Assembly (NCBI GenBank): GCA_027487685.1
Contig: JAIYDC010000070.1
Location: 1-40,547 of the forward strand
DNA: 40,547 nucleotides
Direction: 5' to 3'
Origin: Pseudomonadota bacterium
Lineage (GTDB): Bacteria; Bdellovibrionota; Bacteriovoracia; Bacteriovoracales; Bacteriovoracaceae
The first letter of the stretch is position 1, and each line of letters begins with the position of its first letter. Made by a program: the position numbers and the translations under genes. The notes under the pieces were generated by a model. That model ran no database searches. It was not told the origin of the DNA and was given only the letters and a program-made list of their open reading frames with translations. Below are positions 2,720-25,078 of the stretch, in pieces.

Positions 2720-3157
2720 ATGTACAAAAGTATTATTGCTTCCCTTATTATTGTCCAGTCAATTCTTTCCAACGTCGCAGCCGCAGTAGTATACGTATCC
2801 GTCAGTAAGCGTAACCTCGCCACCATCGACAGAGATTCTGTTAAGAAGTTTTTAAGAGCTGAGCAATTGACTTGGGATAACGGGAACTCTGTTGTCCTGA
2901 TGATCGATGACCTTCAGTTGATTTCGTCTGAGGATTTTTCAGAAGTTCTCAGTATGAGCAAAACCAAGTTTATGGAATTCTGGAGGATTAAATTCTTCTC
3001 CGGACGTGCCTTGCTACCTCGGCAGATTAAGACTCCCTCGGCAGTGATTGACCTTCTGAATGAAAACCCTAGCGCCATTTACATCCGCATCGGACGACCA
3101 CCGGATAAGAAGATCGAGGAAGACTCAAACATCAAGACAGTTTCAGTTACGTTTTAG
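2720..3157 (+). CDS. Small PstS-like periplasmic ligand-binding protein
   Basis: 145 residues with a signal peptide (hydrophobic core IIASLIIVQSILS, cleavage near VAA). The rest follows the pattern of short phosphate-ABC-transporter-like periplasmic proteins: a DSVKKFLRAEQLTW segment (family pattern: Leu/Ile-Lys-Phe-Leu...Trp), then FMEFWRIKFFSGRALLP, then an LLNENPSAIYIRIG segment near the end (family pattern: NPGAIGY). At this length it has one lobe's worth of sequence, so it is a single-domain relative and not a full transporter binding protein. The ATG at 2720 has a GGAAT 11 bases upstream and fits the signal peptide; an ATG at 2702 would add six residues. It is divergent from the porin/kinase operon. 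Its end overlaps the convergent regulator gene by 11 bases. Confidence 0.72.
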   Translation: MYKSIIASLIIVQSILSNVAAAVVYVSVSKRNLATIDRDSVKKFLRAEQLTWDNGNSVVLMIDDLQLISSEDFSEVLSMSKTKFMEFWRIKFFSGRALLPRQIKTPSAVIDLLNENPSAIYIRIGRPPDKKIEEDSNIKTVSVTF

Positions 3158-3947
3158 TCTTAGATCTCTCTTCTACTAGAAATTGGGTCGTGTCCTCAAG
3201 CCTTGCCGCGATGGTTTCGAACAACATTTTAAACCACTTCGGTTGATCACAAAAAATTTGATCGAATTTGTCTTTCGGTATGGGCACGAGTTCTGTGTCT
3301 AAGACTGCGACCACGCTGGCGGATCTGGGCTTGTGTAAGAGAAAACCAAGCTCGCCGACAATCTCTCCGGCCTTCACGGTGCAGATTGTGACTTCCGTAT
3401 TATTAGAACTTTTCTTCGTGACTTTGAGCTGACCCGATTTTACATAAAAAATATCTGTACTGAGGTCGCCTTCCCGCATCACATATTCACCGGCGCTGAG
3501 CTTAACACTATCAATTTGAGAATCTTTGCTTTGAGAACCTTTAAGCACTTTCCTTACAATTCTCAAGGCTTCAACTGGCCTAAAGGGTTTTGCGATGACT
3601 TCAATGTTGGCCAGGCGGTCTATGGACTGACGGTAGTCATCTATTGAAGCGCTGATGAGAAAAATAGGTATGCTGACAAAGGAGTTCCCAGGCACATTTT
3701 TTTTTTCAGTCTCGAGGTTGCGAATCTCCTCAACGAACTTTAAACCATCTTTCTTGGGCATTTTGATATCTGTAATGACGGCATCAAATTCCTGCTCGCC
3801 ATACTTTACCCAGGCATCAAGGCCATCGGTGGCCGACACAACATCCATTCCATCTGAGGTAAAGATATCGACTAACATTTCAAGAAGATCCTTATCATCG
3901 TCGGCGATAAGGACCTTTAACTTCTTGCCTGCTAAGACTTGTGCCAT
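3147..3947 (-). CDS. Response regulator with receiver and cyclic-nucleotide-binding-like domains
   Basis: 266 residues. The N-terminal receiver domain shows the acidic pocket (IADDDKD), phospho-acceptor Asp in DAVITDIKMPKKDG, a switch Ser in FLISAS, and the conserved Lys in VIAKPFRP. The C-terminal half is a cyclic-nucleotide-binding-type beta-roll, with GELGFLLHKPRSASVVA matching the phosphate-binding cassette (Gly-Glu-Leu...Arg-Ser-Ala). No DNA-binding helix-turn-helix follows, so output is likely by protein contact or by ligand gating. The ATG at 3947 is preceded by GGAGAG at good spacing; an upstream start at 4004 has no ribosome site. Whether the fold binds cAMP, cGMP, c-di-GMP or nothing cannot be read from the sequence. 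Confidence 0.88.
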   Translation of the reverse strand: MAQVLAGKKLKVLIADDDKDLLEMLVDIFTSDGMDVVSATDGLDAWVKYGEQEFDAVITDIKMPKKDGLKFVEEIRNLETEKKNVPGNSFVSIPIFLISASIDDYRQSIDRLANIEVIAKPFRPVEALRIVRKVLKGSQSKDSQIDSVKLSAGEYVMREGDLSTDIFYVKSGQLKVTKKSSNNTEVTICTVKAGEIVGELGFLLHKPRSASVVAVLDTELVPIPKDKFDQIFCDQPKWFKMLFETIAARLEDTTQFLVEERSKTKT

Positions 3948-4063
3948 TTTAAATTCTCTCCAGTTACCTATGCGGTATCGGATTTCTGGAAAATTATGTG
4001 ACATTTTTGCATTTACTTAAGATGGCACGGAAAAATGTAAAATGACTTCTGGGGAATGACGGA

Positions 4064-4713: not shown

Positions 4714-4761
4714 CTTCTTTTAATTATTAAATGACAATTCAGATATTTGCGGACGATAACT

Positions 4762-7110
4762 ATGGAAACCTGCACTCATTGTGACGAGATAGCGCTTCCT
4801 GCCGTCTATGGTGATGGGGATGAGATGCACGCGAGGCCTTTCTGCTGCGAAGGGTGCATTGCGGTCTACAACGTCCTTCACCTGAAGGGTTTCGAAGCCT
4901 ATTATGACATCAAAAAGAACTCTGCCATTTTTAAGCGCCGCTCACCCGTAGAGCTCAGGCCCACTCGCTTTGATTTTCTAGATGACGTGGAGGTTCGGAA
5001 GGAGTTTTCTTACGCTAACTCCGATGGTCTTACGACGATGGAGTTTTATCTTGAGGGCATTCATTGCCTCGCTTGTCTGTGGCTTATTGAAAAGCTTCCT
5101 GAGTTCCTTTCCGGTGTGTATAGTTCGAAGCTCGACCTTGAACGCTCCGTGGTCACCGTTGAGCTTGGGGAGCACGGTAAGTTTTCGCTCGTGGCGAAGG
5201 AATTCCATCAGCTTGGATATCGGCCACATCCTCTGAAGCGTAACCAGGATGTAGCGAATCTCAAGACTCGGGAAGAGCGCGCCTTCCTGGTCCGGATCGG
5301 CATCGCCGGTGCGGCCACCGGAAATATTATGATCTACGCCGTTTCACTCTATGCAGGCGCGGACGGAGGTTTTGGACAGCTCTTCAACCTGCTCACGGTC
5401 GTGTTTGCAGTCCCAGTGCTTACCTACTGTGCGTATCCATTTTATCACAACGCCTGGAGTGCCCTTAGAAATAAGACCCTCTCAATCGACATCCCGATTT
5501 CCCTTTCTCTCATTGTCGGCGGTGTCATGGGGCTCACCAACCTCTGGCTTGGCGTTCTTGATAACTATTTTGATTCCCTCACTGCACTCGTTTTCCTGCT
5601 ACTTATGTCCCGCTACTTTTTGCAAAAAATTCAGGAGAAGGGTCTCTCTGCAACTGACCTACACTTTTTCTACCAGTCCGACAGTGTCCTGCGAGAGGAG
5701 AGAGGGGAGTTTCGTGAGATCCATCCCCGCTCCATTAAGAGCGATGACGTGCTTCAAATTCTCCCTGGACAGTTTATCCCGGCCGATGGAATCGTTCTCC
5801 GAGGCGCCTCAAACCTCAACAACTCTCTTTTGACCGGAGAATCACTGCCCGTCAAAGTCACAGCTGGTGACTCCGTTTTCTCAGGCACCGAGAACCTGGA
5901 CCAGGAACTAGTGATCAAAGTCCAGAACGTGGCCGAGGATTCACGGATTGGACGGCTTCTGAAAAACGTTGAGAACGGTTGGGTGAACAGATCGAAGATC
6001 ATTAACCTCACCAACAGAGTTTCAAAGTATTTTACACTAACAGTTTTTCTACTGGCCGGGATTCTGTTTTTTAAACTCCTGCAGGCCCATGACTTCAGGC
6101 ACGCTTTCGAAGGGGCCCTTACGCTTCTCATCGTGACCTGCCCTTGCGCATTGGCACTCGCTGTTCCACTGACTTTCACCCGGGCCCTGGCCACGGCCGC
6201 AGAGCAGGGGATCATCATCAAGAGTGACGAGGTGATTGAGAAACTCGCGGAAGTGAAGCATGTCTTCATCGATAAGACCGGAACGATCACTCTAGGCAAG
6301 CTTGCGATAACGGACTTCCAGGCGATGGGCACTTCCGTCGTACCGTTGAAAGACGTCATCCATAACCTCGAGGTCCGGTCTCGTCATCCTGTGGCCTTAG
6401 CTTTGAAAGCTTTTATCAAAGGTTCTGAACAAAGCTCGCTTCCGGTCGTTGAGTATCGGGAGACCCTCGGGACAGGAGTGTCCGGGACGATTGAAGGACA
6501 TTTTTACGAAATCAAAAAAGAGCGTATATTCCAAGATGGGGTTCCCGTAGCAGAATTCCAAGTTGCAGATACGGTGCGGCCTGACTCGGCAGGATCAGTG
6601 GCGGCACTTACGCAGAGGGGTTTAGGCGTGAGCATCCTTTCTGGTGACCGAGTAGAAGTTGTTGAGCGGATTGCGGCGCAAGTATCCCTGCCGATGACTC
6701 AAGCGTTAGCTGAGCTGGGCCCAGAGGCCAAGAGTGAGCTAATTAAGAAAACTCCCGGCTCGATGATGATAGGTGATGGCGCCAACGATGCCATTGCTTT
6801 GGGTAATGCTCACGTCGGAGTTGCCGTTCACGGGGCGATGGATATCTCTCTGCGAGCGGCCGATGTCTACCTGACGACCCCGGGTCTTGTTCCGGTGGAG
6901 AAGCTTCTGATCCTGGCCAGTGAAACGATGCGAGTCATCCGCCGCAATCTTGTTCTTTCTCTTTGCTATAATTCTCTTTCAGTTCTTGCGGCCTTCCACG
7001 GTTACATATCACCGCTCGTTGCAGCGATTATCATGCCGGTAAGCTCGCTGACTGTCTTGCTCTCGACTCTTGCTGGGACGAAGAAACTGAGGCGCCTATG
7101 GAAATATTGA
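4762..7110 (+). CDS. ccoI: Copper-transporting P1B-type ATPase for cbb3 oxidase assembly
   Basis: 782 residues. It moves copper across the inner membrane for the CuB centre of cbb3 oxidase. Domains in order: an N-terminal cysteine-rich metal site (CTHC, then FCCEGC) typical of CcoI/FixI; a heavy-metal-associated domain (GIHCLACL); paired membrane helices; actuator domain (LLTGES); the metal-translocating CPC motif (TCPCALAL); phosphorylation motif DKTGTIT with Asp near residue 504; the P1B His-Pro motif (SRHPVALAL); and the hinge GDGANDA. The nucleotide-binding domain is short, as usual for this subfamily. ATG at 4762 is preferred over an in-frame TTG at 4747; a weak GGA lies 8 bases upstream. 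It is the first gene of the operon and overlaps ccoS by 13 bases. Confidence 0.95.
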   Translation: METCTHCDEIALPAVYGDGDEMHARPFCCEGCIAVYNVLHLKGFEAYYDIKKNSAIFKRRSPVELRPTRFDFLDDVEVRKEFSYANSDGLTTMEFYLEGIHCLACLWLIEKLPEFLSGVYSSKLDLERSVVTVELGEHGKFSLVAKEFHQLGYRPHPLKRNQDVANLKTREERAFLVRIGIAGAATGNIMIYAVSLYAGADGGFGQLFNLLTVVFAVPVLTYCAYPFYHNAWSALRNKTLSIDIPISLSLIVGGVMGLTNLWLGVLDNYFDSLTALVFLLLMSRYFLQKIQEKGLSATDLHFFYQSDSVLREERGEFREIHPRSIKSDDVLQILPGQFIPADGIVLRGASNLNNSLLTGESLPVKVTAGDSVFSGTENLDQELVIKVQNVAEDSRIGRLLKNVENGWVNRSKIINLTNRVSKYFTLTVFLLAGILFFKLLQAHDFRHAFEGALTLLIVTCPCALALAVPLTFTRALATAAEQGIIIKSDEVIEKLAEVKHVFIDKTGTITLGKLAITDFQAMGTSVVPLKDVIHNLEVRSRHPVALALKAFIKGSEQSSLPVVEYRETLGTGVSGTIEGHFYEIKKERIFQDGVPVAEFQVADTVRPDSAGSVAALTQRGLGVSILSGDRVEVVERIAAQVSLPMTQALAELGPEAKSELIKKTPGSMMIGDGANDAIALGNAHVGVAVHGAMDISLRAADVYLTTPGLVPVEKLLILASETMRVIRRNLVLSLCYNSLSVLAAFHGYISPLVAAIIMPVSSLTVLLSTLAGTKKLRRLWKY

Positions 7111-7277
7111 TTATTCTCCTTCCTTTGGCACTTCTCCTCGGGGCGACATTCATTGGGGCCTTTATCTGGTCTGCACGTCAAGGGCAGTACGACGACCTTG
7201 AAACACCACGCTTCCGTATGCTGCTTGAAGAAAAAAATATCAACCGCTCATCAACGCCAAGAGAGGATAGAAAATGA
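7098..7277 (+). CDS. ccoS: cbb3-type oxidase assembly protein CcoS
   Basis: 59 residues (MEILIILLPL...). One membrane helix covers about residues 3-24, followed by the CcoS signature region WSARQGQYDDLETP (family pattern: Trp...Gly-Gln-Phe/Tyr-Asp-Asp-Leu-Glu), then a short basic tail. CcoS is needed for cofactor insertion into cbb3 oxidase. The ATG lies inside the end of ccoI, and its TGA overlaps the ccoNO ATG as ATGA, so translation is coupled on both sides. It is easily missed because of its length. Confidence 0.92.
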   Translation: MEILIILLPLALLLGATFIGAFIWSARQGQYDDLETPRFRMLLEEKNINRSSTPREDRK

Positions 7278-9460
7278 GTTCCACCCACACGAGTCCTCCG
7301 ACCGCAAACCGGCGGTTAGAGACTTTTTCCTATGATGACCAGATCGTTAAGTCGTTTGTCATCGCGACCGTCCTTTGGGGGGCGGTGGCGATTCTTCTGG
7401 GGGTGGTGATCGCTTTCCAGTTGGCCGAATGGCGGCTTAACTTTGGGGTTCCATGGTTAACCTTCGGCCGGCTGCGCCCACTTCACACCAATGCAGCGAT
7501 CTTCGCCTTTTGCGGGAATGCTATTTTCGCTGGGATCTATTACTCCCATCAGCGGCTGTGTAAGGCGCGGCTCTTTAGCGACCTCTTGTCGCGGATCCAT
7601 TTTTGGGGCTGGCAGGTTATTATTGTCCTTGCGGCAGTGACTCTTCCCTTTGGGATCACCACGGGTAAGGAATATGCTGAGCTTGAGTGGCCGATCGATC
7701 TTTTGATCACGACGATCTGGGTGGTCTTCGCCGTCAATTTCTTTGGGACTTTGGTCCGCCGCCGCGAGCGCCACATCTATGTCGCCATCTGGTTCTACAT
7801 TGCGACCATCGTGACTGTCGCTGTCCTTCATATCGTCAACTCGATGGAGTTGCCGGTTACGCTCTTGAAGTCTTACTCCCTTTATTCTGGCGTCCAGGAC
7901 GCGCTCGTTCAGTGGTGGTACGGTCACAACGCCGTGGCCTTCTTCTTGACCACCCCTTTCCTTGGTCTCATGTACTATTTCATTCCGAAGGCGGCCAATC
8001 GTCCGGTGTATTGGTACCGCCTGTCGATCATCCACTTCTGGTCCCTTGTTTTCATCTATATCTGGGCCGGGCCGCACCATCTCCTTTACACCACTCTGCC
8101 GGAGTGGGCGCAGACTCTCGGCATGGTCTTTTCCATCGCTCTCTGGATGCCAAGCTGGGGGGGAATGATCAATGGTCTCATGACCCTCCGGGGCGTCTGG
8201 GACAAAGTTCGCACTGAACCGGGACTGCGGTTCATGGCGACCTCACTTACTTTCTACGGTATGGCAACCTTCGAAGGCCCTCTTCTATCTATTAAGTCTG
8301 TCAACGCCATCGCGCACTTCACCGACTGGATTCCGGGCCACGTTCACTCTGGAACCATTGGCTGGAACTACATGATGATCGCCGGTGTTCTTTTCTACCT
8401 CGTGCCGAAGCTTTGGAATTCGGAGCTCTATTCCAAGAAACTTGCGAACCTTCAGTTCTGGTTTGCCACCATTGGACTCGTGTTCTACATCGTCTCCATG
8501 TGGGTCGCGGGCATCACTCAGTCTTTGATGTGGCGAGCGATGGACGACGCAGGTCGCCTGATCTACCCGAACTTCATTGAAACTGTAGTGAAGATCGTTC
8601 CGATGTACTGGGTCCGAGCGATCGGCGGAACTCTGGTTCTCGTGTCATTCTTCCTCATGATCTACAACCTCTACATGACTGCGAAACGCGGTAAAAAGAG
8701 GGGCGTTGAAGTTTATGAATCCTACGCGCTGGATGATTCTTCCCTCGAACCAGGTGCAAGCTCTCACCGGAAGCTCGAGGGCCTCCCGATGGTCTTTTCT
8801 GTCCTCTCGGTGGTCGCGATCCTCGTTGGCTCGGCGATTGAGATCGTTCCAAGTCTCATGGCGAAGAACTACATCGTTAAAATGGACGTGGTCAGGCCGT
8901 ATACACCCCTCGAACTTTATGGCCGCGATATTTACATCCGTGAAGGCTGCTACACCTGCCACTCTCAGACTGTTCGTCCGATGACCCACGAAGTCCTCCG
9001 CTACGGTAAGCCGTCCGAAGCCGCAGAGTTCGTCTACGACCATCCGTTCCAGTGGGGTTCCAAGCGTACTGGTCCTGATCTCGCTCGTGCCGGCGGAAAG
9101 TACCCGCACATGTGGCACTATAAGCACTTCTACGATCCACGCGCCGTGACTGCGGGCTCCATCATGCCACGGTATACCTGGCTCTTTGACAATAAGATTG
9201 ATTACTCTACGCTTTCGAAAAAACTCGCCGTGATGAAAAAACTCGGAGTTCCTTACGCGACAGAGGAAATCACCAACGCCGTTGCGATTGCTCAGGCACA
9301 GGCGGCAGAGATCTCGAAGGAACTCGTAGAGAATGGAGTTCCGGCCAAGATTGAACAGATGGAAGTGGTGGCCCTGATTTCTTACATGCAGCGCCTTGGT
9401 GTTGACTATGGCCAGCTGCCGGAAACACCGGTTGAACTCCCCAGCACGGAGGTGAAGTAA
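7274..9460 (+). CDS. ccoNO: Fused cbb3 cytochrome oxidase subunits I and II (CcoN-CcoO)
   Basis: 728 residues. Residues 1 to about 475 are CcoN, the haem-copper catalytic subunit with 12 or more membrane helices. Visible haem and copper ligands include HTNAAIFAF, WWYGHNAVAFF, HH in AGPHHLLY, and GHVHSGTIGWNY. A charged linker (AKRGKKRG...SYALDDSSLEPG) leads to one further helix and the CcoO monohaem cytochrome c domain: GCYTCHSQTV gives the haem c site and SIMPRY the axial Met. In most proteobacteria these are two genes; fused forms are known from some lineages including Bdellovibrio relatives. ATG overlaps the ccoS stop, and its stop overlaps the ccoQ start (TAATG). No frameshift or stop separates the halves. 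Confidence 0.95.
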   Translation: MSSTHTSPPTANRRLETFSYDDQIVKSFVIATVLWGAVAILLGVVIAFQLAEWRLNFGVPWLTFGRLRPLHTNAAIFAFCGNAIFAGIYYSHQRLCKARLFSDLLSRIHFWGWQVIIVLAAVTLPFGITTGKEYAELEWPIDLLITTIWVVFAVNFFGTLVRRRERHIYVAIWFYIATIVTVAVLHIVNSMELPVTLLKSYSLYSGVQDALVQWWYGHNAVAFFLTTPFLGLMYYFIPKAANRPVYWYRLSIIHFWSLVFIYIWAGPHHLLYTTLPEWAQTLGMVFSIALWMPSWGGMINGLMTLRGVWDKVRTEPGLRFMATSLTFYGMATFEGPLLSIKSVNAIAHFTDWIPGHVHSGTIGWNYMMIAGVLFYLVPKLWNSELYSKKLANLQFWFATIGLVFYIVSMWVAGITQSLMWRAMDDAGRLIYPNFIETVVKIVPMYWVRAIGGTLVLVSFFLMIYNLYMTAKRGKKRGVEVYESYALDDSSLEPGASSHRKLEGLPMVFSVLSVVAILVGSAIEIVPSLMAKNYIVKMDVVRPYTPLELYGRDIYIREGCYTCHSQTVRPMTHEVLRYGKPSEAAEFVYDHPFQWGSKRTGPDLARAGGKYPHMWHYKHFYDPRAVTAGSIMPRYTWLFDNKIDYSTLSKKLAVMKKLGVPYATEEITNAVAIAQAQAAEISKELVENGVPAKIEQMEVVALISYMQRLGVDYGQLPETPVELPSTEVK

Positions 9461-9657: not shown

Positions 9658-10283
9658 GCAATAACCCGCACGATCCAAATTCCAAGCTCGACGTTAAGGA
9701 CGACGAGAAGCACCTCCTGCTTGACCACTCGTATGATGGCATCCAGGAGTTGAACCATCCGCTCCCAAGTTGGTGGAACGCAATCTTCTACACCTGCTGC
9801 GCCTTCGCCACAGGTTATTTTGTCTACTACCAGTTCCTGGGCGGAGCGACGCTTCGGCAAGAATTCACCCAGAGCTATGCCAAAGTGCTGGTCGCTCAGG
9901 CGGAGTTTAAAAAGGCCAATAGCGCCTTTAATCAGGAGCACTACCAGGCGATCGTCGCAGACGGCGGAGTCAAAAAGGGGGCTATGGTCTATGAGGTGAA
10001 CTGTGAAGCGTGCCATAGTGAAAAGGGTAAAGGAGACATCGGGCCAAATCTTACAGATGATCATTGGCTGCTGGCCAAGGGAACACCTGGGACCGTCTAT
10101 AATGTCGTCTTTAACGGCTCAGAAGAAAATGGGATGCCAGCATGGGCCGAACTCCTGGCCAAAGACGAGATCTATCAGGCCGTGGCCTATGTGGCGTCTC
10201 TGAAGAACACCTTCGCCAAGGGTGGCAAAGAGCCTCAGGGCGAAAAGGTGATTGAGACATCGGAGACGGTGGTTGAAAAGTAA
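9654..10283 (+). CDS. ccoP: cbb3 oxidase cytochrome c subunit CcoP, single-haem form
   Basis: 209 residues. The N-terminus has the usual CcoP pattern (DGIQELNHPLPSWW) before one membrane helix (about residues 40-60). One cytochrome c domain follows, with the haem site CEACH, then GDIGPNLTDDHW and the axial-Met segment NGMPAWAELL. Canonical CcoP has two such domains in about 300 residues; here only the first is present and the chain ends in a charged tail. ATG at 9654 overlaps the ccoQ stop and has AAGGAC 8 bases upstream; an ATG at 9648 is possible but too near the ribosome site. The stop lies inside the start of ccoG. Confidence 0.92.
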   Translation: MSNNPHDPNSKLDVKDDEKHLLLDHSYDGIQELNHPLPSWWNAIFYTCCAFATGYFVYYQFLGGATLRQEFTQSYAKVLVAQAEFKKANSAFNQEHYQAIVADGGVKKGAMVYEVNCEACHSEKGKGDIGPNLTDDHWLLAKGTPGTVYNVVFNGSEENGMPAWAELLAKDEIYQAVAYVASLKNTFAKGGKEPQGEKVIETSETVVEK

Positions 10284-11670
10284 AAACATCTTCGAGCTAG
10301 ATCCAGAGCGCCTCGCGACCACCGACGAACAGGGGAATCGGATCTACTTGTATCCGGAGGACGTAAAGGGGAAGTGGAAGGATCGGCGCTCGCTTCTGTA
10401 CTGGCTACTGATTGTCATCTACTTGGTGCTTCCTTGGTTTAACATTAATGGGAGACCCGCGTTCCTGGTGGATCTGGCCCATCGAGAATTTACTTTCTTG
10501 GGGGGGACTCTTCACGGAGTCTTGCCCGTTCTTTTTTTCTTAATAGTTGCGTCTGGTCTTTTCTTCATCGGTTTTCTGACCAGCCTCTTGGGGCGTGTTT
10601 GGTGCGGCTGGGCCTGTCCGCAAACCGTTTTCATTCAGGCGATGTTTATGAAAATCGAAGTCCTTTTTGAGGGGAAGGCGCGGCAGCGTCGTGAACTCGA
10701 TAAGGCCCCATGGAGCTTGAGTAAGGGCCTGCGCCGAGCAGGCAAGTGGCTCGCCTTCGCTGTCATTTCCCTTCACATCGCTCACACTTTGGTCGGCTAC
10801 TTCGTAGGACCGCGGGAGCTCTTTCGAATCACCCTTCAAGCACCCGGAGATAACTGGACCCTCTTCGTTACGACGATGGTGATAACAGCGATCTTTCTTT
10901 TGGACTTCGGATGGTTTCGGGAACAGTTTTGCATCATCGCCTGCCCCTATGGGCGGATGCAGTCTGTGATGATGGATGAGAACTCCCTGGTTGTGGCCTA
11001 TGACGTGAAACGGGGTGAGCCCCGCCGAGATCCCGGAGTGATTGAGCGCTCCGCCGAGGGTGACTGTATTAACTGCTACAATTGTGTCAAGGTATGCCCC
11101 ACTGGTATTGACATCCGCCGGGGAACTCAGCTTGAATGCATCGCCTGCACCCAGTGCATCGATGCCTGCGATGATATTATGACCAAGGTCGGTAAGCCTA
11201 CTGGACTCATCCGCTACAGTTCCGAGAACGAGCTGATCGGGAAGCCGCGAAAGGTGGCCACTGTCCGGTCTGGGATCTATGTCGCGATCTCGCTAACGTT
11301 CGTTTCTCTGTTTCTTGTCTTCCTGAATGCAAGTACCAATCTGAACCTCGTTTTCTTACGTTCAAAAGTTCCGTTTACTCTGATCGATGAAGGCAGGACA
11401 GTGGTGAATCACTTTACGCTTAAACTCTCGCACCAAGGGAGTAAGACTTATAACATTGACCTTGTCGTGAACGATCCGGACATCGCTGCTGTCACTAATT
11501 CGCATCCTACGATCGTCAATGTTCCGGATAAAAAGATCGTTCTCTTTTTGAAGTTTCCCATCACAGAACTTGAAAGCGGTTCCCGGGTAGTCCAGGTGAG
11601 TGCGGTGGACTCTGAAACTCGAGCTATACTCGCGACGAAGGAGGTGACAATTGTCGGACCAGTTCGTTAG
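10273..11670 (+). CDS. ccoG: Cupric reductase / cbb3 assembly ferredoxin CcoG (RdxA/FixG family)
   Basis: 465 residues. It is an inner-membrane protein with several helices and two [4Fe-4S] sites (CINCYNCVKVCP and CIACTQCIDAC). Other conserved cysteines lie in WCGWACPQTVF and CIIACPYGRM. The C-terminal 110 residues form an Ig-like domain (FixG type). CcoG reduces Cu(II) to Cu(I) for cbb3 assembly. I chose TTG at 10273 because GGAG lies 7 bases upstream; an in-frame TTG at 10252 has no clear ribosome site. It overlaps ccoP by 11 bases and the next gene by 20. Confidence 0.93.
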   Translation: MKSKNIFELDPERLATTDEQGNRIYLYPEDVKGKWKDRRSLLYWLLIVIYLVLPWFNINGRPAFLVDLAHREFTFLGGTLHGVLPVLFFLIVASGLFFIGFLTSLLGRVWCGWACPQTVFIQAMFMKIEVLFEGKARQRRELDKAPWSLSKGLRRAGKWLAFAVISLHIAHTLVGYFVGPRELFRITLQAPGDNWTLFVTTMVITAIFLLDFGWFREQFCIIACPYGRMQSVMMDENSLVVAYDVKRGEPRRDPGVIERSAEGDCINCYNCVKVCPTGIDIRRGTQLECIACTQCIDACDDIMTKVGKPTGLIRYSSENELIGKPRKVATVRSGIYVAISLTFVSLFLVFLNASTNLNLVFLRSKVPFTLIDEGRTVVNHFTLKLSHQGSKTYNIDLVVNDPDIAAVTNSHPTIVNVPDKKIVLFLKFPITELESGSRVVQVSAVDSETRAILATKEVTIVGPVR

Positions 11671-21059: not shown

Positions 21060-21929
21060 ATGCTTAAAGCACCTACCCCATTAGTTGAATTCGAGCGCCT
21101 CAAGGCCCTCTTAGAATATGAAGTTCTTGATACGGTGTCGGAACAATCCTTCGACGATCTCGTCAAGATGGCCTCTCATATCTGTGGGACTCCTATTGCC
21201 CTGGTGAGTTTGATTGATAGTAACCGCCAGTGGTTTAAGGCCAAGCACGGTCTGGACGCTCCGGAGACACCGAGGGACGTCTCCTTTTGTGGCCATGCGA
21301 TCGTGAACCCGGGTAGCATTTTCGTTGTTCCCGATTCGTTTAAAGACGATCGCTTCGCAGATAATCCTCTCGTAGTCGGGGCACCGAACGTGCGCTTCTA
21401 TGCGGGCGCTCCCCTGGTGAATGATTCGGGGTTTGCTCTCGGAACTCTTTGTGTGATTGATCATCAGCCGCGGGAACTATCTGCGGATCAGTTAACATTT
21501 CTCGAGATCCTTTCAAGGCAGGTGGTGGCACAGCTTGAGATCCGTAAGGCGCTCCGGCTTGCCAAACAGAATTTTCAGGAGCTTCAGAACCTCTCCCAAA
21601 CAGTACTAGAACAGAAGGATGTTATCAGCTCTCACGAGAAGCTCGCGGTTATAGGTCACCTCGCTTCCGGTGTCTCCCACGAGATTAATAATCCTCTGGC
21701 GATCATCAGTGGAACCGTACACATTATGCGCTTTCTTCTCCAGAAAAATGAACCGTCAGATAAAATTATCGCTGAACTCGGGCGCATCGATGCCACAGTG
21801 ATCCGCTTAAACAAAATCGGTAAGGCCTTAAGAACTATCTCTGGTGATAGGGCGGCGAGCTTCAAAGACGCCAAGGAGATCGAAGAGACTTTCCTGAAGA
21901 TGATGGACGAAGCTAAGAAGAGTGCCTGA
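21060..21929 (+). CDS. GAF-HisKA protein lacking the kinase ATPase domain
   Basis: 289 residues, soluble. A GAF domain covers about residues 20-165 (EVLDTVSEQSFDDL, DVSFCGHAI, FYAGAPLV, GTLCVID). A coiled coil follows, then a HisKA dimerisation/phospho-acceptor helix pair with His207 in GVSHEINNPLAI. The protein ends about 80 residues later with an acidic, Lys-rich helix (EIEETFLKMMDEAKKSA). No N, G1 or G2 ATP-binding boxes occur before or after the stop. It therefore cannot phosphorylate itself; it may be phosphorylated in trans, act as a phosphotransfer or decoy partner, or be a truncated kinase. Next to two full kinases of related design. Start ATG has AGGAG upstream. Confidence 0.88.
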   Translation: MLKAPTPLVEFERLKALLEYEVLDTVSEQSFDDLVKMASHICGTPIALVSLIDSNRQWFKAKHGLDAPETPRDVSFCGHAIVNPGSIFVVPDSFKDDRFADNPLVVGAPNVRFYAGAPLVNDSGFALGTLCVIDHQPRELSADQLTFLEILSRQVVAQLEIRKALRLAKQNFQELQNLSQTVLEQKDVISSHEKLAVIGHLASGVSHEINNPLAIISGTVHIMRFLLQKNEPSDKIIAELGRIDATVIRLNKIGKALRTISGDRAASFKDAKEIEETFLKMMDEAKKSA

Positions 21930-22213: not shown

Positions 22214-23788
22214 CTACGTGTTCTGCTTTTTTGGAATTCGAATACGGAAGCGAGTGTTCGCAGCGTCGACGTCCAACACCAGTGCGCCTCGGTGGGATTC
22301 GATGAGGCCTTTGGATAGGCTTAGTCCAAGGCCAGTTCCTTGTCCCACTTCTTTGGTGGTAAAGAAGGGCTGCATGATCTTCTCCCTGATGGACTCGGGG
22401 ATACCAGACCCTGAATCTTCGACGATGATCTCCACCATGTGCTGGTCATTTTTAACTTCAAGTCGAACCCAAGGAGTCGGTTTTTGAATAACGGCGTCGA
22501 AGGCATTATTTAAGAGATTCAAAAGAACCTGGCTGATCTGCACTGAGCGGCACTCTAGCTCGAGGTCTTCCTCGAAGGGCTCGACAGTGAGGGTGACTCT
22601 GTTGTTCCTAAAGCGTGCCTCACAGAAACTGAGGGTTTCTTGGACGATACTCGCGAGGTTCGCCTTTTCAAATGGGTCCAAGGATCCGTCACGAGCAAAG
22701 GTCTTTATGCCTGAGATGATCTTTGCGATGCGCCCTACGGTAGCGTCGATCTTGGCACAGGCGTCTGTGATATCCTGAGGTCTTGCTTCGTCCAAAAGTG
22801 TGAGGTGCTTTAAGATTTTAGTATTGCCGAGGATAATCGTCAGAGGGTTATTGACTTCGTGAGCGACTCCAGCGGCCATTTCTCCGAGAGAGGACATCTT
22901 GGCGGCAGCGACAATTTTGGCCTGTTGATCACGGATGAGTTTTTCTTGATGCCTTTGGATGGAGATGTCTTTTCCAATACTGATGCAGTGTCCACTTGAG
23001 AGGCGCACGTTCATCCAAGAAGTCGGGATGACGGAACCATGCCTGGTATGGGTTTCAAAAGTCATCCATTCATTTTGCCGCGGTGAACTCATGAAGTTAA
23101 TGACCTCCTGACGCTTGACCGGATTAGGGTAGAACTCGGGCAAAAGATTATGGGCCTGCCCCTCAGAAACCCTCCAGCCTAGGACATTTTCGAACGCTGG
23201 GTTCGCCCATACGAAATGTCCTTGTTCGTCATAAATTGAAAGGAAAACAGGGATATTATTAACGATGGTTTCGAGTCTTTCCTTCTCCGGGCGGTGCCTG
23301 TCTGCAGCCACCCATTTGTCTTTGTTATTGGCCCTGTCTTGTTGCTCTCGGAGTGACTTAACAAGTTCGAGCTGAAGCATGATTTGGCGGGCCAGAAGAT
23401 GAAGGCCATCGAGCTGAGAGGTCTCGAGGCGTCTGGGGATAAGGTCGATGACACAAAGGGTGCCGATCTGGTGACCCTGGGGTGTTGTTAGAGGTACAGC
23501 GGCCAGGAATTGATGGTCGCTGAACTTGGCCTTGGTCTGTCTGAAGTGCTCGTGGGAAGCGAGATCTTCAATCATCAGGCCCTGAGGACCACAGAGAGCA
23601 TGGGCACAGATGGCCATGGCCTGGTTGATTTCGGAGGGGTCCAAACCGAAGTGGGATTTTACCCGTACCTGGTCTCCACCCACGAAGGAAATCAGGGCAG
23701 CGGGGGTCTGGCAGATCTGGGCCGCAAGCCGGGCAATATCGTTGTAGCTATCCTTTGGCAAACTATCCAGGGTTTCAGTATCGAGCAC
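22214..23788 (-). CDS. Soluble GAF-PAS sensor histidine kinase
   Basis: 524 residues. A GAF domain (about 1-150; SYNDIARLAAQIC, GTLCVIDLIPRRL) is followed by a PAS domain (about 170-285; IPVFLSIYDEQGHFVWANPA), HisKA with the acceptor His in GVAHEVNNPLT, and a complete HATPase domain: NLLNNAFDAV, EDSGSGIPE, MQPFFTTKEVGQGTGLGLS. No membrane helix and no receiver. The start is GTG, with GAGGGG 6 bases upstream; the frame continues upstream without another start codon as far as a stop, and the GAF domain seems only slightly shortened at its N-terminus. The GAF and HisKA parts resemble those of the ATPase-less neighbour at 21060, suggesting an old duplication. The gap to the upstream kinase gene is 66 bases. 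Confidence 0.92.
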   Translation of the reverse strand: MLDTETLDSLPKDSYNDIARLAAQICQTPAALISFVGGDQVRVKSHFGLDPSEINQAMAICAHALCGPQGLMIEDLASHEHFRQTKAKFSDHQFLAAVPLTTPQGHQIGTLCVIDLIPRRLETSQLDGLHLLARQIMLQLELVKSLREQQDRANNKDKWVAADRHRPEKERLETIVNNIPVFLSIYDEQGHFVWANPAFENVLGWRVSEGQAHNLLPEFYPNPVKRQEVINFMSSPRQNEWMTFETHTRHGSVIPTSWMNVRLSSGHCISIGKDISIQRHQEKLIRDQQAKIVAAAKMSSLGEMAAGVAHEVNNPLTIILGNTKILKHLTLLDEARPQDITDACAKIDATVGRIAKIISGIKTFARDGSLDPFEKANLASIVQETLSFCEARFRNNRVTLTVEPFEEDLELECRSVQISQVLLNLLNNAFDAVIQKPTPWVRLEVKNDQHMVEIIVEDSGSGIPESIREKIMQPFFTTKEVGQGTGLGLSLSKGLIESHRGALVLDVDAANTRFRIRIPKKQNT

Positions 23789-23854: not shown

Positions 23855-25078
23855 TTAAAAAACGACGGGCCCATTTATTAAGGGAAGCTCGATGATAAAA
23901 TTTGCCCCTTTGCCAGGTCCATCTTCAACCCAGATCTTCCCACCGTGAAAAGTCACGATTTCACGCGAAATGAAGAGACCAAGACCCAGCCCAGACGCTT
24001 CATTTCCTGTGGCCGCTCGCCCGAAGCGTTCGAAGATGCGGTGGTGAGCTTCTAGTGGGATTCCTGGTCCTTCATCATGGATGGCCAGGCGAACCTTGTC
24101 ACCAGGCCAACGAAAGAGCTCCAACGTTATGCGGGTTCCGGGGGCGTACTTGATTGCATTCATCAAAAGATTCCCTATCAACTGCTCTATCCTATATGTG
24201 TCCAAGAGGACTATGATGGATTCGCATCTATTGAGATTAAGTTCTCCGCCTTGTTCCAGAATCTGAGGTGTGAATCGTTCGGCCAATTCGCGAACAAGCT
24301 TCGCCAGATCTTGTGGATTCAATTGCAGTTTCAGATGTCCTTCCTGGATTCGGGAGGTATCCAACATGTCATCTACTAACAGGGTCAGTCGCTCGATTTG
24401 CTTATTAACTTTTTGCGTGAACTTGCGGAAGTCATCCTGACTCATAGGGTGATCACGGTCAAGCTTTCGCCCTTGCATCTGACTCACGAGTTTCAGAGTT
24501 GTAAGAGGTGTCTTAAGCTCGTGGGAGGCGATCGACAGAAACTGGTCCCGGGCCCGAACTGCCGCTTCAAGTTCGTGGGTCCGCTCCCTGACAGTCACCT
24601 CGAGTTTTTTTGTAAGCACCTCGAGATCAAGCCTGCGCTCATTGGCGAGTTTTGCGGCCTGGGCGACCAGCACGATGGAATGCCGAAGCTGCCAAAGGTA
24701 GATTCCTGTTCCCACAGAAGCAATGGCGGTGACGATCTTGATCCAGGCCGCCCACCAATAGTCGGCGTGCCAGAGGTTCCAGACTTCCATCAGATGCGTC
24801 AGACCGCAGGCGCCGATAAAGACTGCAAAAAATATAACCACTTGATTAAAAGGTACCCTAACGCGCTTGATGAGTGCGCAGAGGGTGAATGAAATTAAGA
24901 TGTAGGCAGAACCGATCAGCGTATCGGAGATTACGTGGAGTGAGACGAGGAGCGGTTTCCAGAGGTAACAGTGGCCATGTGGCATGAAGCCAGACTGCGA
25001 GAAGATCTCATGCAGACGCTCGGTGAGCTCAGGGGACCCCTTGGCAGCCGACGGTAATGGGTGCTGATGTTGTTCCAT
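23855..25078 (-). CDS. Histidine kinase with ethylene-receptor-like membrane domain
   Basis: 407 residues. Residues 40-130 form three membrane helices that align without gaps in the key spots with the ethylene-binding domain of plant ETR1. Asp52, Tyr59, Ile62, Ile88, Cys91 and His95 match ETR1 Asp25, Tyr32, Ile35, Ile62, Cys65 and His69; the ETR1 Pro36 position is Ser63. Cys65 and His69 bind the copper ion in ETR1. A coiled coil leads to HisKA with His186 (SIASHELKTPL) and a full HATPase (NLLMNAIKYAP, HDEGPGIP, GLGLGLFISREI). There is no GAF or receiver domain. ATG has AAGGAG upstream. Function in sensing ethylene, copper or another small molecule is inference. Confidence 0.9.
   Translation of the reverse strand: MEQHQHPLPSAAKGSPELTERLHEIFSQSGFMPHGHCYLWKPLLVSLHVISDTLIGSAYILISFTLCALIKRVRVPFNQVVIFFAVFIGACGLTHLMEVWNLWHADYWWAAWIKIVTAIASVGTGIYLWQLRHSIVLVAQAAKLANERRLDLEVLTKKLEVTVRERTHELEAAVRARDQFLSIASHELKTPLTTLKLVSQMQGRKLDRDHPMSQDDFRKFTQKVNKQIERLTLLVDDMLDTSRIQEGHLKLQLNPQDLAKLVRELAERFTPQILEQGGELNLNRCESIIVLLDTYRIEQLIGNLLMNAIKYAPGTRITLELFRWPGDKVRLAIHDEGPGIPLEAHHRIFERFGRAATGNEASGLGLGLFISREIVTFHGGKIWVEDGPGKGANFIIELPLINGPVVF

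Follow-up and report, generated by a model that had tools for sequence, protein, structure and literature searches.

Histidine kinases with an ethylene-binding domain (EBD) are already known in bacteria, where SynEtr1 (Slr1212) of Synechocystis and AzoEtr1 of Azospirillum brasilense both bind ethylene and SynEtr1 signals by phosphorelay (PMC11819568, PMC6682694). In the Arabidopsis receptor ETR1, ethylene binding requires seven residues (PMC11819568, PMC6682694), among which Pro36 is named (PMC6586836); replacement of the seven by alanine, Pro36 included, abolishes binding (PMC11819568, PMC6586836). We take the count of seven from PMC11819568 and the identity of Pro36 from PMC6586836. In ETR1 and AzoEtr1 Asp25 positions His69 and forms a pair with Lys91 (PMC11819568); a kink in helix 3 of ETR1 has been attributed to Pro110 (PMC6586836). 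Prediction of ethylene receptors in bacteria usually relies on the domain being present, and they are usually discussed in connection with cyanobacteria and plant-associated bacteria. In this work we describe an EBD kinase of a member of the Bdellovibrionota; the part that appears unfamiliar, judged from sequence, is the variant branch to which it belongs, in which the residue corresponding to Pro36 is no longer proline (hereafter Pro-less).

Table 1. Features of the EBD kinase locus, in positions of the window (the whole stretch of DNA analysed, 40,547 nucleotides)
Feature	Positions	Strand	Basis
EBD histidine kinase, 407 aa, intact HisKA and HATPase_c	23855..25078	-	ORF list, Pfam, motif check
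Ethylene-binding-type membrane domain, residues 44-133 (PF25487 ETR1_N)	24680..24949	-	Pfam E=8e-27
Helix 1 (predicted), residues 42-72, bearing Asp52, Gly56, Tyr59, Ile62, Ser63	24863..24955	-	AlphaFold2, pLDDT mostly >95
Helix 2 (predicted), residues 78-103, bearing Ile88, Cys91, His95	24770..24847	-	AlphaFold2
Helix 3 (predicted), unbroken into coiled coil, residues 107-173, bearing Lys114, Ser121, Gly125	24560..24760	-	AlphaFold2
Codon of Cys91 (= ETR1 Cys65, copper ligand)	24806..24808	-	Alignment
Codon of His95 (= ETR1 His69, copper ligand)	24794..24796	-	Alignment
Codon of Asp52 (= ETR1 Asp25)	24923..24925	-	Alignment
Codon of Ser63 (position of essential ETR1 Pro36)	24890..24892	-	Alignment and domain collection
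HisKA, dimerisation and phosphoacceptor, His186	24338..24553	-	Pfam, motif check
HATPase_c, kinase catalytic domain	23879..24199	-	Pfam
Second, soluble histidine kinase (weak GAF, PAS, HisKA, HATPase_c)	22214..23788	-	ORF list, Pfam

The protein is a true member of the EBD family, related to the ethylene receptor domain of plants: it scores 93.8 bits against the ETR1_N profile, for which the Pfam cut-off is 27, a match far beyond chance. The kinase part is that of a sensor histidine kinase, with His186 in an SHELKTP motif in HisKA (residues 176-247), HATPase_c at residues 294-400 and the N, G1 and G2 motifs all present. An AlphaFold2 model built from residues 1-174 and 49 relatives (mean pLDDT 90.2) contains the three transmembrane helices of the family, with the Cys/His pair in the second. 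By an ideal helical wheel, from which all our face assignments are taken rather than from coordinates, Cys91 and His95 lie one turn and 40 degrees apart on one face of the same helix. A first-pass annotation, made from the letters alone, had proposed an ethylene-receptor-like membrane domain with its copper ligands kept and three helices near residues 40-130; it had suggested a profile search as a check and asked whether the two ligands might fall on different faces. Both checks came out in its favour, and profile, alignment, conservation within the branch and model all bear the proposal out. The third helix runs unbroken in the model, which fits the presence of His133 at the position of ETR1 Pro110. 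In the PDB a sequence search brought up no relative, and nothing scored below an E of 0.98 in a fold search.

For the alignment we used what we take to be the ETR1 sequence, whose numbering agrees with the literature. The six residues listed by the annotation all pair with their counterparts (window/ETR1: Asp52/Asp25, Tyr59/Tyr32, Ile62/Ile35, Ile88/Ile62, Cys91/Cys65 and His95/His69), but the 'exact spacing' that it claimed is confined to each helix, as Ile62 and Ile88 lie 26 residues apart here and 27 in ETR1, the loop that joins helices 1 and 2 being shorter by one residue. The equivalents of ETR1 Lys91 and Ser98 are kept as Lys114 and Ser121. The annotation had, however, left out the seventh essential residue, Pro36, which is Ser63 here, so that six of the seven are present and by the seven-residue test the protein would not, on its sequence, be an ethylene receptor. 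Serine stands at this position in all readable homologues of the same genus, and Ser63 is not accidental; the loss of proline, as a fixed trait of a whole branch, leaves ethylene sensing less secure than the annotation assumed.

AzoEtr1 shares with the window protein an N-terminal EBD, the copper Cys/His pair, a bacterial histidine kinase, glycine at ETR1 position 29 and the lack of a GAF domain (PMC11819568), so the absence of GAF, correctly observed by the annotation, is not unusual, AzoEtr1 being a proven ethylene binder. AzoEtr1, read from the Sp7 plasmid as DYIPICH with Gly29, nevertheless has Pro36, a PAS domain and an overlapping response regulator gene, whereas the window protein has Ser63, no PAS domain and a second kinase gene adjoining. 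SynEtr1, whose output is a phosphorelay, is likewise an EBD histidine kinase, but its ethylene binding is demonstrated and, as a bifunctional receptor, it senses light as well (PMC11819568, PMC6682694), whereas the window protein is known from sequence. With ETR1 the protein shares the three-helix domain, the six essential residues, the Lys91 and Ser98 equivalents and the histidine kinase; it differs in Ser63, in the shorter loop, in having neither GAF nor receiver, and in glycine for Ala29 and Ala102.

To place the Pro36 position in a wider setting we collected bacterial EBDs. Of 369 genomes surveyed in the same phylum, 60 have the domain above cut-off, and among 55 readable distinct domains of this Bdellovibrionota sample position 36 is Pro in 33, Ser in 15, Ala in 4, Leu in 2 and Thr in 1 (22/55 non-Pro). 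Among 195 genomes of Myxococcota it is Pro in none of 26 domains (20 Ser, 6 Ala). The whole collection, which is not random but centred on these phyla, one betaproteobacterial family and matches near the window protein, comprises 175 distinct domains, 102 with Pro and 73 without (50 Ser, 13 Ala, 10 other); the 13 natural alanine domains carry the very change that was scanned in ETR1. Both copper ligands are kept in 63/73 Pro-less and 101/102 Pro domains, and loss of Cys or His is thus commoner among the former (10/73 vs 1/102). In four Burkholderiaceae EBDs (L228, L229, L222 and L223) the copper Cys is replaced by Ser or Ala while His is retained. One EBD (L073) comes from a contig whose label, a Klebsiella pneumoniae metagenome-assembled genome, is probably wrong. 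No relative turned up when viral contigs were scanned; a predicted viral protein of 289 aa, BFVD A0A8E4UZR7, matches the EBD model at E=8.6e-5 with 23% identity and is possibly a virus-borne EBD.

In a tree of 125 domains the window protein falls into a group of 30, all Pro-less (24 Ser, 5 Ala, 1 Thr), drawn from Bdellovibrionota, Myxococcota and Betaproteobacteria (Noviherbaspirillum, Polaromonas), with moderate support (SH-aLRT 84) for a short domain. A single Pro-less clade is possible, the AU test failing to reject it (p 0.29), but for so short a domain it is not proved. Within the window branch the copper Cys is kept in 27/28, the copper His in 28/28 and Asp25 in 27/28 domains. Numbered as in ETR1, the branch differs from the Pro domains by glycine at 29, 63 and 102, by arginine at 109 and by tyrosine or tryptophan at 104; the glycines at 29 and 102 replace pocket-facing alanines of ETR1. 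On the ideal wheel Gly56 (ETR1 29) and Ser63 share a face of helix 1 with Asp52 and Tyr59, and Gly125 (ETR1 102) lies on the Lys114/Ser121 face of helix 3; much of the change is therefore clustered about the ligand site, with the copper ligands unchanged. Pro-less kinases of Myxococcota, Bdellovibrionota and some Burkholderiaceae (Myxococcus, Pyxidicoccus, Anaeromyxobacter, Polaromonas and Noviherbaspirillum) resemble the window protein: they retain the copper ligands, have serine or alanine at position 36 and mostly have Gly29 and Gly63, with Gly102 mainly in the first two groups. Gly29 tracks the loss of proline (39/43 Pro-less vs 5/79 Pro domains), yet independent contrasts yield one supported pair, too few independent changes, so this strong raw association may reflect one or two events. 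In the six genomes with this branch that we checked (four myxobacterial, two betaproteobacterial) its member is the sole EBD.

Many Pro-less proteins also differ in architecture. Among 80 named loci, an EBD-kinase-receiver-kinase layout (one with an extra receiver) occurs in 20/35 Pro-less against 3/45 Pro domains (Fisher p 8e-7, uncorrected for relatedness). Myxococcota and Burkholderiaceae Pro-less proteins hold these parts in one chain, whereas the window protein is a short EBD-kinase. Its gene is followed after 66 bases by that of the second kinase, with no terminator-like site on the same strand between them, and the closest relative (L040) has the same gene order, its second kinase being 77% identical over 367 aa. 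The notion that this kinase derives, by splitting, from the second kinase of the kinase-receiver-kinase proteins found no support, as it is no closer to their second than to their first kinase. No response regulator adjoins the EBD kinase in the window; a linked regulator, as in AzoEtr1, is usual in bacteria although not strictly defining. Among relatives a response regulator does follow the EBD gene, as REC-PilZ at L046 and a single REC at L050 (both with short EBD proteins) and as a single REC at L065 (long form). At L046 the receiver-PilZ protein (4897-5631) comes directly after the EBD kinase without a gap, which suggests a c-di-GMP-linked output there. Elsewhere in the window lie a 289-aa protein in which GAF and HisKA, but no ATPase domain, were recognised (21060-21929, + strand; 77% identity in L040) and a response regulator joined to a cyclic-nucleotide-binding domain (3147-4004, - strand), near another histidine kinase (242-1573).

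Between the window protein and L040, dN is 0.14 in the membrane part (residues 31-135; dS about 1.5), 0.24 in the kinase part and 0.50 in the N-terminal tail; as dS is near saturation, we use the ranking of dN only. By this measure the membrane sensing part is the best-kept part and under purifying selection. The gene is patchy, with a match in 7/26 genomes of the genus, the window's included. One same-genus EBD is split between two frames (L012, G009) and another has a TAG inside its open frame (L010, G020); either could be an assembly error.

We read the protein as an active membrane sensor kinase with a copper site, presumably loaded with copper, of a Pro-less variant branch. In the mechanism that we propose, with a probability of roughly 0.55, an EBD-family sensor histidine kinase embedded in the membrane would use a Cu(I) site in a variant pocket, and a ligand would shift helix 3 to control His186. 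The proposal builds on family membership, the kept residues, the predicted helices, the intact kinase, conservation and purifying selection. In a dimer of two chains, by analogy with ETR1 and AzoEtr1, Cu(I) within the membrane would be bound by Cys91 and His95, with Asp52 and its partner Lys114 setting their position; Asp52, His95 and Lys114 are all retained. Arrival of a small neutral ligand at the copper might then shift helix 3, which continues directly into the coiled coil, and so change autophosphorylation of His186, the direction of this signal being as much our supposition as the copper loading and the ligand. The phosphate would pass to a presumed partner, a response regulator encoded elsewhere, perhaps in cooperation with the adjoining second kinase. 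The ligand, or the affinity for it, is probably not that of the classical receptors, because Pro36 is replaced by Ser and two pocket-facing alanines by Gly.

The annotation's suggestion that the kinase may respond to ethylene, copper or some other small ligand is a possible one. Ethylene is the single most likely ligand, though not established, and we name it tentatively, at somewhat less than even odds. It would be sensed in the ordinary way if Ser63 were harmless and the rest of the pocket, Gly56 and Gly125, compensated for it, so that the protein were a conventional ethylene receptor. We lean against this but take it seriously: six of the seven essential residues and Lys114 and Ser121 are retained, Gly29 is associated with the loss of proline, and proven bacterial receptors exist (PMC11819568). 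Against it, Pro36 is indispensable in ETR1 and occurs also in AzoEtr1, which combines it with Gly29, so that Gly29 alone is no marker of compensation, and we found no ethylene-binding test of any Pro-less member in the EBD literature cited here. Caution about ethylene follows from the loss of Pro36 across the branch, natural alanines included, and from the commoner loss of copper Cys or His in Pro-less domains.

The same copper site could instead respond to redox state, to copper status or to a different gas or small molecule, CO or a larger alkene for example. Copper ligands that stay fixed while the ethylene-specific residue is lost across a branch, and small residues in place of larger ones on the pocket faces, speak for such a ligand, but nothing points directly to any other ligand and no copper-homeostasis gene is adjacent, which makes this reading rather unlikely. 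The CcoI-like pump gene (4747-7110) lies about 17-18 kb away, at the distance given by the annotation (18 kb), beside a cbb3 oxidase. This pump gene and a CcoG-like protein (10252-11670) neighbour a single 728-aa ORF in which COX1 and FixO (CcoN and CcoO) are fused (7274-9460, + strand). Very unlikely, in our judgement, is a degenerate membrane anchor whose kinase answers something else, for instance the partner kinase: although the gene is patchy, one copy is split and the copper Cys has been lost from some relatives in Burkholderiaceae, the copper ligands are near-invariant in the branch and the membrane part is under stronger purifying selection than the kinase part.

We found no description of a Pro-less branch in the bacterial EBD literature cited here; an earlier one is possible, as the surveys cited there lay beyond our coverage. 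A bolder reading, which we offer as speculation and consider unlikely, is that the branch forms a separate receptor class, with an ETR1-type copper site tuned to a different small ligand, serving Bdellovibrionota and myxobacteria (both groups with many predators) and often acting via a kinase-receiver-kinase relay. With 73 of the 175 collected domains, and the entire Myxococcota sample, lacking one residue defined in plants, either bacteria do not follow the seven-residue rule or many of the proteins predicted to be 'ethylene receptors' respond to something different, and the Pro-less domains raise the question of ethylene sensing by predatory bacteria.
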